In this document: piece after piece, positions 16,596 through 20,738 of the stretch
How positions within the stretch are numbered: the first letter of the stretch is position 1
How the letters are laid out: each line of letters starts with the position of its first letter
Origin: Hyphomicrobiales bacterium
GTDB lineage: Bacteria > Pseudomonadota > Alphaproteobacteria > Rhizobiales > Beijerinckiaceae
DNA: 43,610 nucleotides
Assembly: GCA_947455455.1 (NCBI GenBank)
Contig: CANGOE010000015.1
Coordinates: 1 to 43,610, forward strand
Direction of reading: 5' to 3'
Made by a program: the position numbers and the translations under genes
Notes under the pieces: generated by a model
What the model was told of the DNA's origin: nothing
The model's database searches: none
The model's input: the letters and a program-made list of their open reading frames with translations, nothing else

Positions 16596-17228
16596 ATGGC
16601 TCAACGTCGGCTTCAAGGCAAAGTGGTGATTGCTACCCATAACCATGGCAAGCTGGTTGAAATGCGCGATCTGCTCGCGCCTTTCGGTCTGGAGGCGGTG
16701 TCGGCGGCTGAATTGTCCCTGCCCGAGCCGGAAGAGACCGGCGTGACTTTCGCCGAAAACGCCGCCATCAAAGCGCTTGCGGCCACAAAAGCCACCGGAT
16801 TGCCGGCTTTTGCCGATGATTCCGGCATCTGCATCGAGGCTTTGGGGGGCGAGCCGGGCATCTATTCGGCCCGATGGGCTGGACCGGAAAAAGACTTCGA
16901 CCGCGCCATGCGCCATATCGAGGAATTGTTGCAAGCCAAAGGCGCGATGCTTCCCGAGCAACGCAAGGCGTGGTTTGTTTCTGCGCTCACGGTGGCCTGG
17001 CCTGACGGACATCTGGCCGAGGTCGAAGGCCGTGTTGACGGCACGCTGGTCTGGCCGCCGCGCGGTCCTGCCGGTTTCGGTTATGATCCGATGTTTCTGC
17101 CCGAGGGTGATACCCGCACTTTCGGCGAGATGAGCCGCGAGGAAAAACACGGCCTGCCGCCTTTGGGCCGTGGCCTTTCGCATCGCGCCAGAGCATTTGT
17201 AGCGCTGGTCGATCAGGTTCTGACATGA
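16596..17228 (+). CDS. rdgB: XTP/dITP diphosphohydrolase (RdgB/HAM1)
   Basis: A 210-residue nucleotide-pool sanitising pyrophosphatase that removes ITP and XTP and their deoxy forms. The N-terminal [17 protein letters not shown] contains the substrate-binding T/SxNxxK-type motif, [24 protein letters not shown] (near residues 70-95) is the family core, and GFGYDPMF near 160 and LSHRARA near 195 complete the site. It lies 11 bases after rph and overlaps the hemW start by four bases (ATGA), so the three genes form one operon. Confidence 0.97.
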
Positions 17229-18403
17229 AAACCACCGCGCCAGCGGTCCTTTCCGGTCCTGATGATCCCGGTTTCGGGGTCTATCTGCATTGGCCGTTCT
17301 GCCTGTCCAAATGTCCCTATTGCGACTTCAACAGCCATGTCCGCCATCACCGGATCGACGAGGACCGTTTTATCGCCGGCTTTGCCCGCGCCATGGCGCA
17401 ACAGGCGCAACTGGTGCCTGACCGGATTGTCACCAGCATCTTTCTGGGCGGCGGCACGCCTTCGCTGATGGCTCCCGCAACCGTCGGTGCTTTGCTGGAT
17501 GCCGTCGGCCGCCACTGGTCGGTGGCCGGCAATGTCGAAGTGTCGATGGAGGCCAATCCGACCAGTGTCGAGGCCGGACGGCTGGCCGATTATCGCGCCG
17601 CGGGGGTCAATCGCCTGTCGATTGGCGTGCAGGCGTTGAATGATTCCGATCTTCAGGCTCTGGGGCGCAAACATTCGGTGGCCGAAGCCCTTGATGCCGT
17701 GGCCAAAGCGGCCGCCGTGTTCGACCGTTATTCCTTTGATCTGATCTATGCCCGCCCCGACCAAACCGAGGCGGCCTGGCGGGCTGAACTGAAGCAGGCG
17801 ATTGCGCATGCGGCCGAGCATCTCTCGCTCTATCAATTGACCATCGAGCCGGGGACGATGTTTGAACAGCGTGTCAGAGCCGGACAATTGATCCCGCTGG
17901 ATGCAGAACGGGCGCGTGGCCTGTTCGATGTCACCCAGCAGGTCTGTGCGGATGCCGGATTGCCCGCCTACGAGATTTCCAACCACGCCAGACCGGGAGC
18001 CGAGAGCCGCCACAATCTGATCTATTGGCGCTATGGCGAATATGCGGGGATCGGGCCGGGGGCGCATGGCCGGCTGGTGGTCGATGGCACCCGCCGTGTA
18101 CTGGTTTCGCAAAAGCACCCCGAACAATGGCTGGAACAGGTTGAGCAATCCGGCGCGGCCCTTGTGGAAGAAGAACAATTGACGCGCGAGCAGGAGGGCG
18201 ACGAAATGTTGCTGATGGGCCTGCGCCTGCGCGAGGGCATTTCACCGCAACGCTATGCCGATCTGTCGGGAAGGCGGCTCGATCCGGCCAAAATTGCCGA
18301 TCTCGTCTCCGATGGGGTGCTTGAAAGCCTGCCCGATAACCGGCTTCGGGCGACCATTGCCGGTGTGCCGGTGCTGGATGCGGTGATTGCCGCTTTGAGC
18401 TGA
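17225..18403 (+). CDS. hemW: Radical SAM heme chaperone HemW (formerly HemN-like coproporphyrinogen oxidase)
   Basis: A 392-residue radical SAM protein. The iron-sulfur CxxxCxxC motif is [13 protein letters not shown] near residue 25; the absence of a further cysteine right after this motif separates HemW from true HemN oxygen-independent coproporphyrinogen oxidase. [12 protein letters not shown] near 76 and MEANPTSVE near 110 are radical SAM core motifs, and the C-terminal HemN_C domain includes [10 protein letters not shown] and [11 protein letters not shown]. HemW inserts heme into respiratory enzymes. It is the last gene of the rph operon. Confidence 0.95.
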
Positions 18404-18441
18404 TACGACTTTCCAGGCCTTATCAAAAGCCGATTTCAGGC

Positions 18442-18488
18442 AAAAAAAGCGGTGTTCGATCCATGCGCGGACAGGGATCGAACACCGC
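18442..18488 (-). terminator. Strong Rho-independent terminator on the minus strand, downstream of luxR
   Basis: A perfect 14-base-pair inverted repeat, GCGGTGTTCGATCC (18449-18462) with GGATCGAACACCGC (18475-18488), has a 12-base loop. Read on the minus strand it is followed directly by seven T residues (18448-18442). It lies about 200 bases beyond the luxR stop codon and would end a transcript coming from luxR or from the lux-box-like site at 18656-18675. Confidence 0.9.
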
Positions 18489-18625
18489 AACGGCTCTTCC
18501 GTCTGGGGTCGGAAGCGACCGATTAGGGATGAGCAACACCGCTTGGTGGTTGTCAGAAGGACCAGTCAGGGCTTCATGAAACAACGGAGTTTCTGGGGTC
18601 TCGCAAGCGGTCGTTACTCATTGAC
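18449..18625 (-). ncRNA. Candidate small RNA between a lux-box-like site and a terminator
   Basis: If the palindrome at 18656-18675 is a LuxR-activated promoter, transcription to the left would begin near 18623 and end at the terminator at 18442-18488, giving an RNA of about 180 bases. A weak -10-like TTATGG sits 21-26 bases after the box on the minus strand. The copy of GCGGTGTT near 18535-18543 (minus strand) could also pair with the right arm of the terminator, hinting at alternative folding. The only small reading frame, about 15-19 codons starting MVRSMSND, has GGTGAGG before an ATG. This is inference; no RNA family is recognised, and the region may simply be the luxR 3' tail. Confidence 0.3.
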
Positions 18626-18655
18626 CTCACCATAAGTCACCTTGAGATTTGCCGA

Positions 18656-18675
18656 ACCTGTCCGTTCTGACAGGT
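18656..18675. promoter_or_regulatory. lux-box-like palindrome just after the luxR stop codon
   Basis: The 20-base site ACCTGTCCGTTCTGACAGGT is a perfect 7-base inverted repeat with a 6-base spacer and fits the CTG-N10-CAG pattern of LuxR/LasR-type boxes. It starts eight bases after the luxR stop codon. It could instead be a simple hairpin at the end of the luxR message, but no U-run follows it on either strand. Confidence 0.5.
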
Positions 18676-18683
18676 AACCCGTC

Positions 18684-19400
18684 TTATTTGCGGTTGATCA
18701 GTCCCATCGAAACCGCTTTGCCGACACTTTCCATCGTGGTGTGGCTGCCGAGTTTGACGCGGATATTCTCGCGGTGAAAGCGCACGGTGCGTTCGCTGAT
18801 CCCCATCAATCGGGCCGTCTCGGCAAGGGTTTTGCCCGCCGCAGACCAGCTGATGCATTCGGTCTCGCGTGCGCTGAGAGTGCCGCTCATATCCTTGGAG
18901 CGTAGCAATTGATTGGCGCGGGCATGGCAATGCATCGCCAGCAGGGTCAGCGAGGCCATGGTGGCAGATGAGGGGCCCCAGTCATCGGTCTGCTGGTCGG
19001 CGGTAAAGGACACAAGCCCGAAACTGCCATCGGGACTGCGCAAAGGCACGCTGATGCCGGTTTTGCCGATGCCGTAATCCACCGCCTCGCCAACCAGATT
19101 GCGCGCTTCCTTGCTGTTGATCGGCACCGTATCCCAGTTGACCGGCAACATGGCGTGCGAACAGGCATTGAGCACGGGATCAAGTGCGGCATAGGAGCGG
19201 TCGATATAACGGCTTTGCCATTCCCGCGGATAGGTGGTGGACACCACCCAATCTTTCGGGGCGAGCATGGGTGAGCGCAGGGTCAGATAAGCGACATGCC
19301 GGAAGCCGAAATCCAGCAAATGCGCCTGGCACAGGCGGCTGATATGCTCGATGCTCTTGCACCGGCCAATCGCATGGATTGCGTTTGCATGTAACAGCAT
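18684..19400 (-). CDS. LuxR-family transcriptional regulator with autoinducer-binding domain (LuxR solo)
   Basis: A 238-residue quorum-sensing type regulator. The N-terminal acyl-homoserine-lactone-binding domain keeps the conserved residues of TraR/LasR: Trp61 and Tyr65 (WQSRY), Asp74 (AALDP), Trp89 (VNWD) and Gly116 (KTGISVPL). The C-terminal GerE helix-turn-helix has LSARETECISWSAAGKT near residue 175 and ISERTVRFHRENIRVKL near 201. The ATG at 19400 is chosen; an in-frame TTG six codons upstream lacks a ribosome-binding site. No luxI synthase is in the window, so it may answer signals made elsewhere in the genome or by other cells. A lux-box-like palindrome lies eight bases past its stop, and it has its own sigma70-type promoter at 19458-19485. 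Confidence 0.93.
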   Translation of the reverse strand: MLLHANAIHAIGRCKSIEHISRLCQAHLLDFGFRHVAYLTLRSPMLAPKDWVVSTTYPREWQSRYIDRSYAALDPVLNACSHAMLPVNWDTVPINSKEARNLVGEAVDYGIGKTGISVPLRSPDGSFGLVSFTADQQTDDWGPSSATMASLTLLAMHCHARANQLLRSKDMSGTLSARETECISWSAAGKTLAETARLMGISERTVRFHRENIRVKLGSHTTMESVGKAVSMGLINRK

Positions 19401-19457
19401 GTTGACAATTCTCGCCAAGGAAAAAACGCTAAAAAAATCAACAACACAATTTCTGAA

Positions 19458-19508: not shown

Positions 19509-20738
19509 TTAAAAACTTTGCTTGGCGGTCTGGATCACGGTTGTCGCGCCGGATGAGATTTGCGAAATCGTCAAGGGACGCTCGGTGCCGCCCCCCGCCT
19601 TGAAACGGAACAGGCCATCGGTACCGATCATGCCGTCTGTGTTGTGCAAGGTCGCTTCGCTAAAGGCCTGTGGGCCATACTGGTTCATCAAGGCATTGAC
19701 CAGAAATACCGCATCATAGCTCAAACTGGCCAGACGCGGTGGCTCTTCGCCGTATTTTGCCTGATAGCGTTTGGCAAAGGCGGCAAATCCGGTGCGGTCG
19801 GGCGAGGCAAACCAGCCCCCTTGAAAGGCCTGGGTCTTGATCAGGCGGGGATCATCCCATGCGCTGGTGCCAAGCAATTGCCATTTTTTCGTTTCGATGC
19901 CTGCGGCCTGCAAGGCGGCCCCTGCGGTGGCGGCGCCATCGCCGTTTTCGGGGACGAACAGGGCATCGACCGGCACGGTGACTGCGGCAATGGCTTTGGC
20001 GGCTTGGTCGGCGTTTGAGGCGTTGTAGCGCTCGAGGGTTGCCACGCGCAGGCCGCGGCGGGCACAGGCCTCCTGAAAGGCCGCAGCCACCACATTGCCA
20101 TAGGCCCCTTCGGGAATCATGGCGGCAAAAGAGGTTTTGCCTTTGGACGCGGCAAAGCCGATGATCTGGTCGACATCGTTATCGGGCAGGAAGCTCAGCA
20201 AATAGACCCCGCGCCCTCCTACCGATTGATCGGTTGAAAAGGCAATCATCGGCTTGTTGGCCGCGCGGGCCACATCGCCTGCCGCTTTCACCGAGGGGGC
20301 GAGCAAGGGGCCAAGCACCACTTGTGCGCCTTCAGCCAAAGCACTGCGGGCGGCACTGCGCGCGCCTTCCGGCGTGCCCATATCGTCCTTGATCACCAGT
20401 CTGATTTTTGCGCCCTTGTATTCGGACAGGGCCAGTTCTCCGGCATTGCGCAATGCAGAGGCGACCGCACCGGTATTGCCGCTTGCGCCCAAGGGCAACA
20501 AAAGGGCCACGGTGGTGCCGTCAGACGGCGCAAGGGCGCTGGCGGGAGCATCGGCTGTCGGGGGCAGATCCAGCGGTTGTTCGGTCACAGTGCCGATGGG
20601 GGCTGACAAAGTCGGCGTGGCCTCGCGCGGTGATCCGAAGCGGCTGGATCCCATACAGCCGGCCAGCATGCAGGCCAGAACCACCGATAGCGAGAGCCGA
20701 AGCATCGTCTTGAGTATCCCGCCCTGATTCCCTTGCAT
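19509..20738 (-). CDS. Penicillin-binding protein activator LpoA-like lipoprotein (LppC/COG3107)
   Basis: A 409-residue exported lipoprotein. The signal segment MLRLSLSVVLACMLAGC ends in an LAGC lipobox, so the mature protein is lipid-anchored. The rest has the periplasmic-binding-protein-like fold of the LppC/LpoA group: VALLLPLGASGNTGAVASALRN near residue 78, QVVLGPLLAPSVKAAGDVA near 135 and LASLSYDAVFLVNAL near 345. In enterobacteria LpoA activates the peptidoglycan synthase PBP1A; that role is inferred here. Divergent location from rsmI-yraN-gshB matches the usual lpoA/rsmI/yraN cluster. An ATG at 20705, directly at the hydrophobic segment, is a reasonable alternative start; GGGAGG lies upstream of the ATG at 20738. 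Confidence 0.9.
   Translation of the reverse strand: MQGNQGGILKTMLRLSLSVVLACMLAGCMGSSRFGSPREATPTLSAPIGTVTEQPLDLPPTADAPASALAPSDGTTVALLLPLGASGNTGAVASALRNAGELALSEYKGAKIRLVIKDDMGTPEGARSAARSALAEGAQVVLGPLLAPSVKAAGDVARAANKPMIAFSTDQSVGGRGVYLLSFLPDNDVDQIIGFAASKGKTSFAAMIPEGAYGNVVAAAFQEACARRGLRVATLERYNASNADQAAKAIAAVTVPVDALFVPENGDGAATAGAALQAAGIETKKWQLLGTSAWDDPRLIKTQAFQGGWFASPDRTGFAAFAKRYQAKYGEEPPRLASLSYDAVFLVNALMNQYGPQAFSEATLHNTDGMIGTDGLFRFKAGGGTERPLTISQISSGATTVIQTAKQSF

Follow-up and report, generated by a model that had tools for sequence, protein, structure and literature searches.

We propose that a LuxR-type acyl-homoserine lactone (AHL) receptor switches on comM and a small RNA, belonging to a new family, that is encoded directly behind the receptor gene; from comparison of the sequences, we give this reading a probability of about 0.7. 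The fuller proposal, in which the AHL receptor, the adjacent small RNA with its fixed C-rich loop and the comM recombination helicase form one lux-box regulon that is set simultaneously, is more tentative, and we would place it slightly short of even odds. The box, its spacing to a -10-like hexamer, the RNA fold, the covariation and the gene order are observed; binding of AHL and of DNA by the receptor, transcription of the RNA and its pairing with targets are inferred. The locus lies in a window of 43,610 nucleotides, the whole stretch of DNA analysed here, which forms contig C15 in a draft genome (G000) of 2.7 Mb and 86% completeness. A first-pass annotation had suggested a quorum-controlled small RNA behind luxR. 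Comparison of gene order, RNA core and covariation supports this main claim and gives it a wider scope than was stated. The features of the locus are collected in Table 1.

Table 1 Positions of the receptor gene, the predicted RNA and their neighbours in the window
Feature	Position	Strand	Remarks
hemW	17225..18403	+	PF04055/PF06969; convergent neighbour that fixes synteny; same position in 8/8 genomes
Predicted small RNA	18442..18622	-	about 181 nt; start inferred from the -10 hexamer
Intrinsic terminator	18442..18488	-	stem 18488-18475 / 18462-18449 (14 bp), 12-base loop, T7 at 18448-18442
Conserved hairpin	18491..18521	-	8-nt loop ACCCCAGA at 18509-18502, putative seed
Variable 5' domain	18522..18622	-	39% identical in G004; different in g5
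Predicted -10 hexamer	18629..18634	-	TATGGT; 22 nt after GACAGG
lux-type box	18656..18675	-	ACCTGTCAGAACGGACAGGT; ACCTGTC-N6-GACAGGT; arms kept in 5/5 same-genus genomes
luxR-type AHL receptor gene	18684..19400	-	ATG at 19400, alternative TTG start at 19418; no adjacent luxI
LPO/LppC-like lipoprotein gene	19509..20738	-	PF13458, PF04348; upstream of luxR; same position in 8/8 genomes

We examined the receptor and its surroundings in order to place it among LuxR-type proteins. The genes around the locus are rph, rdgB and hemW on the plus strand, luxR and the LPO/LppC-like gene on the minus strand, and rsmI on the plus strand. The receptor matches PF03472 (1.2e-31) and PF00196 (5.6e-13), both above cut-off. 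Six pocket and fold residues, which we take to be W57, Y61, D70, P71, W85 and G113 of LuxR-type proteins in TraR numbering, are present in all eight solo receptors and in the other 11 receptors aligned. A scan of contigs confirmed eight loci, namely four from the same genus and four Acetobacter LuxR genes (30-33% identity). Receptors of this type that lack a neighbouring synthase gene are widespread, and for many of them no targets are known. The present gene had been called a LuxR solo, a name that holds for its immediate surroundings (its neighbours are hemW and LPO, without luxI, in 8/8 genomes) but perhaps not for the genome, where a separate luxI-luxR pair, whose AHL may serve this receptor, lies elsewhere, on contig C1. 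The abstract of a paper on LuxR solos (PMC4338825) applies the term to receptors whose genome has no cognate synthase gene; our receptor resembles them in its AHL-binding and HTH domains and in having no luxI beside its gene, and differs in that its genome carries one luxI, next to another luxR.

The repeat behind the gene begins, as annotated, eight bases past the luxR stop codon (18684-18686), running from 18675 to 18656 on the minus strand. It had been described as a perfect palindrome fitting CTG-N10-CAG; the fit is there, but the six-base centre is not self-complementary and only the 7-base arms pair. Within the window, ACCTGTC-N6-GACAGGT has one match without mismatch and two further matches with three mismatches, where 1.13 matches with up to three mismatches are expected and 10 of 100 shuffles reached three. 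Across the genome, CTGTC-N6-GACAG occurs 12 times versus 8 for the reversed control, and CCTGTC-N6-GACAGG with one mismatch 23 times versus 21. Because these genome counts are near the control, the motif alone is weak evidence, and its position and conservation carry the case. We count it against our main reading that in G003 the solo luxR lacks the usual stop and its frame continues through the box (L012:1505-2287).

We searched the DNA of 60 relatives and found the region in five genomes (G000-G004), all of the same genus and including the window's own. Identity of G001-G003 to the window is 95-99% in the RNA core, 86-93% in the 5' part, 83-84% in luxR and 85-88% in hemW, with 61-63% over the 38 bases between terminator and hemW and 46-68% in the luxR-LPO gap. 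The more distant G004 is 52% identical in luxR, 39% in the 5' part, 80% in the core and 65% over the 20-base box, with the arms kept. The first-pass annotation had asked whether relatives keep only the terminator: box and RNA core are both kept in 5/5 same-genus genomes. In three genomes of a second genus, g5, the core is kept in 3/3; the box is perfect in G008, has one changed base in the CTGTC/GACAG arms in G073 and has decayed in G107, a loss that weighs against our reading.

Two of the g5 loci came from a covariance model. A model built from the five same-genus cores only (R1) matched 16 of 199 family genomes at E <=0.1, the five of the same genus and 11 others, with marginal values in G008 (0.001) and G107 (0.006). 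Since similar values occur at unrelated places (for example, 0.002 in G150), the R1 E-values alone were not decisive and such scores are counted against our reading; G008 and G107 were settled by the adjoining LuxR gene, which a receptor search placed directly upstream of the R1 matches, and these two loci count in favour of our reading. The loci of G008, G107 and G073 share gene order and RNA core with the window's genus, and the order hemW>, <RNA-luxR-LPO is thus found in 5/5 same-genus genomes and these three. A second model, R2, built from all eight sequences, gave E <=2e-12 only in its eight training genomes among the 397 of the family, which again counts against us; its next match in another genome has E 6e-4 and no CCCCAGA. 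The RNA seems confined to two genera within the sampled family, with coverage outside the family given by the DNA search of 60 relatives. We also scanned weak R1 and R2 matches for nearby CCCCAGA (11 loci, L108-L118, and 22 loci, L181-L202) and found it in five, the true members L108 and L110 and the loci L185, L186 and L193. L186 and L193 (~1501-1570), weak model matches from two other genera, have a similar CCCCAGA hairpin, and by eye we saw no LuxR in the adjoining frames.

The predicted transcript has a length of 181 nt from a start at 18622, agreeing with the RNA of about 180 bases proposed earlier, and the terminator with its 14-bp stem and seven T residues was located as described, with a 12-base loop, at 18488-18442. 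A simple terminator scan did not report the 18442-18488 hairpin, probably because it takes loops of 3-8 only. The region 18442-18643 folds at -79.6 kcal/mol (z = -5.34), and 0 of 200 shuffles were as stable. Four terminator pairs show compensatory change among the five same-genus sequences, and with all eight sequences of the two genera the raw count, made without a shuffle control, is 8 of 17 pairs. Taken together, core and gene order in eight genomes of two genera and these 8/17 compensatory pairs count in favour of the small RNA. The fold of the 5' domain drew no covariation support from 56 pairs in four sequences, where the one double change lies in the terminator and six pairs are broken, each in one sequence. 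The U run is present in G000-G003, interrupted in G004 and absent from the three g5 RNAs, which end in a strong hairpin; we count the broken run of G004 and the missing g5 runs against the main reading.

The loop of the conserved hairpin, (A/C)CCCCAGA, is kept in 8/8 sequences of the two genera, and a constant loop beside a variable 5' domain suggests a seed for target pairing. In G000-G003, a second CCCCAGA occurs within the variable 5' domain itself (18599-18592 with the preceding A). We compared the loop with 26 start regions of seven genes (comM, solo luxR, paired luxR, luxI, the BcsS-like gene, LPO and hemW) and obtained no clear duplex, the best being equalled in 11 of 100 shuffles, a negative result that counts against our reading. 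The window contains no Rfam match at gathering score, and 18380-18760 gave one chance-level match, to a plant snoRNA at E 6.6. The RNA is like 6S RNA (RF00013) in being an intergenic structured RNA of similar length; this candidate was rejected, as the only 6S match of G000 sits on contig C56. An antiterminator was likewise dropped: a second GCGGTGTT copy, which had been thought able to pair with the terminator arm, is present at 18542-18535 but is changed in G001, G002 and G003.

comM is preceded by the box in 8/8 genomes, perfectly in six and with one mismatch in G004 and G107, and in G073 this is the sole perfect CTGTC-N6-GACAG site. In G004 and G073, mutS lies directly before the comM box. 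In the five same-genus genomes together, CTGTC-N6-GACAG has 39 sites versus 20 for the control. We inspected all 39 and found that 15 fall into four syntenic groups: behind luxR (five genomes), before comM (G000-G003), between radC and a gene that matches BcsS weakly (G000-G003; Pfam supports RadC in one genome and BcsS in two), and between genes for a 2-hydroxyacid dehydrogenase and an SH3-domain protein (G000 and G003; Pfam in G000). Three of these 15 (L012, L063, L069) are inside a mechanically called frame, as are 22 of the other 24, the remaining two lying between frames. The three g5 genomes have seven perfect sites versus four for the control; of the seven, one belongs to the RNA (G008), two stand before comM (G008, G073) and four lie elsewhere. 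The modest excess over the control in both genera counts against the main reading. The predicted regulon is short: the RNA, comM and, in the first genus, also the BcsS-like gene.

If the box is an operator, a promoter should lie at a set distance from it, and class II lux-box promoters have their dyad near -42.5. We took as hexamer the best of seven offsets (19-25 from GACAGG). At the RNA promoters this is TATGGT in G000-G003, TATAGT in G004 and TAAATT in G008 (22 nt), with only 3/6 positions matching in G073 and G107. The distance comes to 22 nt in 7/8 genomes, G073 included, and to 23 nt in G107, and before comM it is 21-23 nt in 8/8. Matches to TATAAT at the RNA and comM promoters amount to 3-5 of six, and hexamers this weak, chosen as the best of seven offsets, count against the main reading. 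A simple scan gave no sigma-70-type promoter for the RNA, its sole promoter match (19485-19458) being upstream of luxR. In G004, the box arms and TATnGT keep their spacing while the intervening bases have diverged, which we count in favour. The luxI promoters cut both ways: the best hexamer lies 22 nt behind their own box in 3/3 g5 genomes (scores 3-4), which favours our reading, but in only 3/5 genomes of the window's genus, g1, and of two promoters of genus g21 at 22 nt one scores 3 and the other 1, which does not.

This geometry bears on an alternative that we consider unlikely, namely that the hairpins are the luxR 3' untranslated region and terminator, shared with convergent hemW, and that the repeat is a post-stop hairpin of the genus and not an operator. 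The position of the box 8 nt past the luxR stop would suit such a hairpin, as would the copies that follow the mutS and radC stops and the g5 RNAs without a U run. The same holds for the comM box of G008 and G107, which is a few bases past the stop of a reading frame between mutS and comM (L212, L213, ~990-1430). Against this alternative, mutS itself ends ~440 nt before the box there, and the box has stayed with comM and not with mutS. A hairpin of this kind also leaves unexplained why the best hexamer is 21-23 nt away at 16/16 RNA and comM promoters when offsets of 19-25 were allowed, and why the loop is kept in 8/8 sequences though it is unnecessary for termination. In a simulation, a hexamer of >=4/6 at one common offset arose in three random lineages with a probability of 9e-5, for lineages (G000, G004, G008) that were picked because they score >=4, G073 and G107 scoring 3.

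Using 23 luxR-luxI gaps, a subset of those fetched, we asked which receptor reads the box. ACCTGTC-N6-GACAGGT is present at two luxI promoters, both of genus g21, which counts in favour of our reading; others have ACCTGA- or CCGTC-type dyads, and the luxI box of g1 and g5 is of the CTGC...CAG type, not CTGTC. In the recognition helix, the position after RTV/RTI holds R in all eight solos and in the two g21 paired receptors that have a CTGTC box; the seven g1 and g5 paired receptors examined, that of G003 excluded, have K, and another two g21 receptors have T. By eye, R goes with the GTC/GAC dyad in each of the six pairs, out of 23, that carry it (L128-L131, L133, L147), and K occurs only with other dyads; R also occurs with other dyads (L132, L135, L136). 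This correlation of helix residue with box type points to the solo receptor as the probable reader of the CTGTC box, and together with the comM box in 8/8 genomes it counts for the main reading.

It also makes it improbable that control of the RNA and comM falls to the paired LuxR at the luxI locus and not to the neighbouring receptor, given that the luxI boxes of both genera are not CTGTC and that one helix residue differs in step. Some observations do lean towards the paired LuxR. Both receptors retain the six pocket and fold residues, and one lux-type box may serve several receptors. In BLASTP, two of the three g5 solos (G107 and G073) are closer to the paired LuxR than to the window's solo, and a tree built with 19 receptors did not resolve the solos from the two genera as a single group; we count both results against the main reading. 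Finally, we regard it as very improbable that the RNA serves as a short mRNA with a micropeptide encoded from its 5' end: one base past the predicted start there begins a 15-codon frame, which is kept in G000-G003, and G004 has by eye a different 30-codon frame near the RNA 5' end (L013:2450-2646), but seven of the eight substitutions in the 15-codon frame change the peptide and one is silent, no peptide is common to the lineages, and the conserved part is the 3' core.

In the mechanism that we favour, activation by the neighbouring receptor, the solo would bind AHL, probably the product of the LuxI whose gene lies elsewhere in the genome, and in its AHL-bound form would occupy the box 8 bases behind its own gene. 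There, overlapping the -35 region, it would work as a class II activator and give rise to a separate transcript from ~18622. The ~181-nt transcript would end at the hairpin with T7 and act as a small regulatory RNA, whose exposed loop would most probably base-pair with target mRNAs. This receptor may also activate comM via the same type of box upstream, and cell density would then raise the recombination helicase and the RNA together.

Receptor-controlled small RNAs are already known. RhlS of Pseudomonas aeruginosa arises from the 5' UTR of rhlI and the same promoter, is controlled by an AHL receptor and has an intrinsic terminator (PMC6786874). By description, not by sequence, our RNA resembles RhlS in its predicted AHL-receptor control and, in the window, in its predicted intrinsic terminator, and differs in being a unit by itself that follows a receptor gene, has a separate box and lies next to no luxI. 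Likewise, passages from work on Dinoroseobacter shibae report that com genes including comM respond to AHL, that CtrA sites are predicted for all three com genes with CtrA named as their regulator, and, in one passage, that CtrA and quorum-sensing sites overlap for competence (PMC6473078). The tie between comM and AHL, which we propose from the box, is common to both; there CtrA is named as regulator of the com genes, whereas here a lux-type box directly precedes comM. The available text of the LuxR-solo paper (PMC4338825) has no mention of small RNA or competence, and in titles and abstract beginnings, mostly of papers free of subscription, we found no description of a module of AHL receptor, own small RNA and comM box. 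If our reading is true, AHL sensing in Hyphomicrobiales would be linked to post-transcriptional control through a small RNA adjacent to its AHL receptor, and quorum sensing would act directly, through the comM box, on the recombination of incoming DNA. The helix residue, R or K, offers a testable idea about specificity.

Further boxes were seen at other genes. The luxI promoter of the window's genus has its own conserved box of another type, CTGCTCTTTTGATCAG or CTGCCCTTAAGATCAG (L028-L032). A perfect box lies between the 2-hydroxyacid dehydrogenase and divergent SH3-domain genes at G000:C43:18576 (L062) and G003:C250:7879 (L063). The box between radC and the BcsS-like gene, of ~265 codons, is located at G000:C62:6290 (L065), G001:C13:13438 (L078), G002:C8:45503 (L069) and G003:C56:6058 (L067), and in all four genomes a CANAAT hexamer follows it at a distance of 21 nt.
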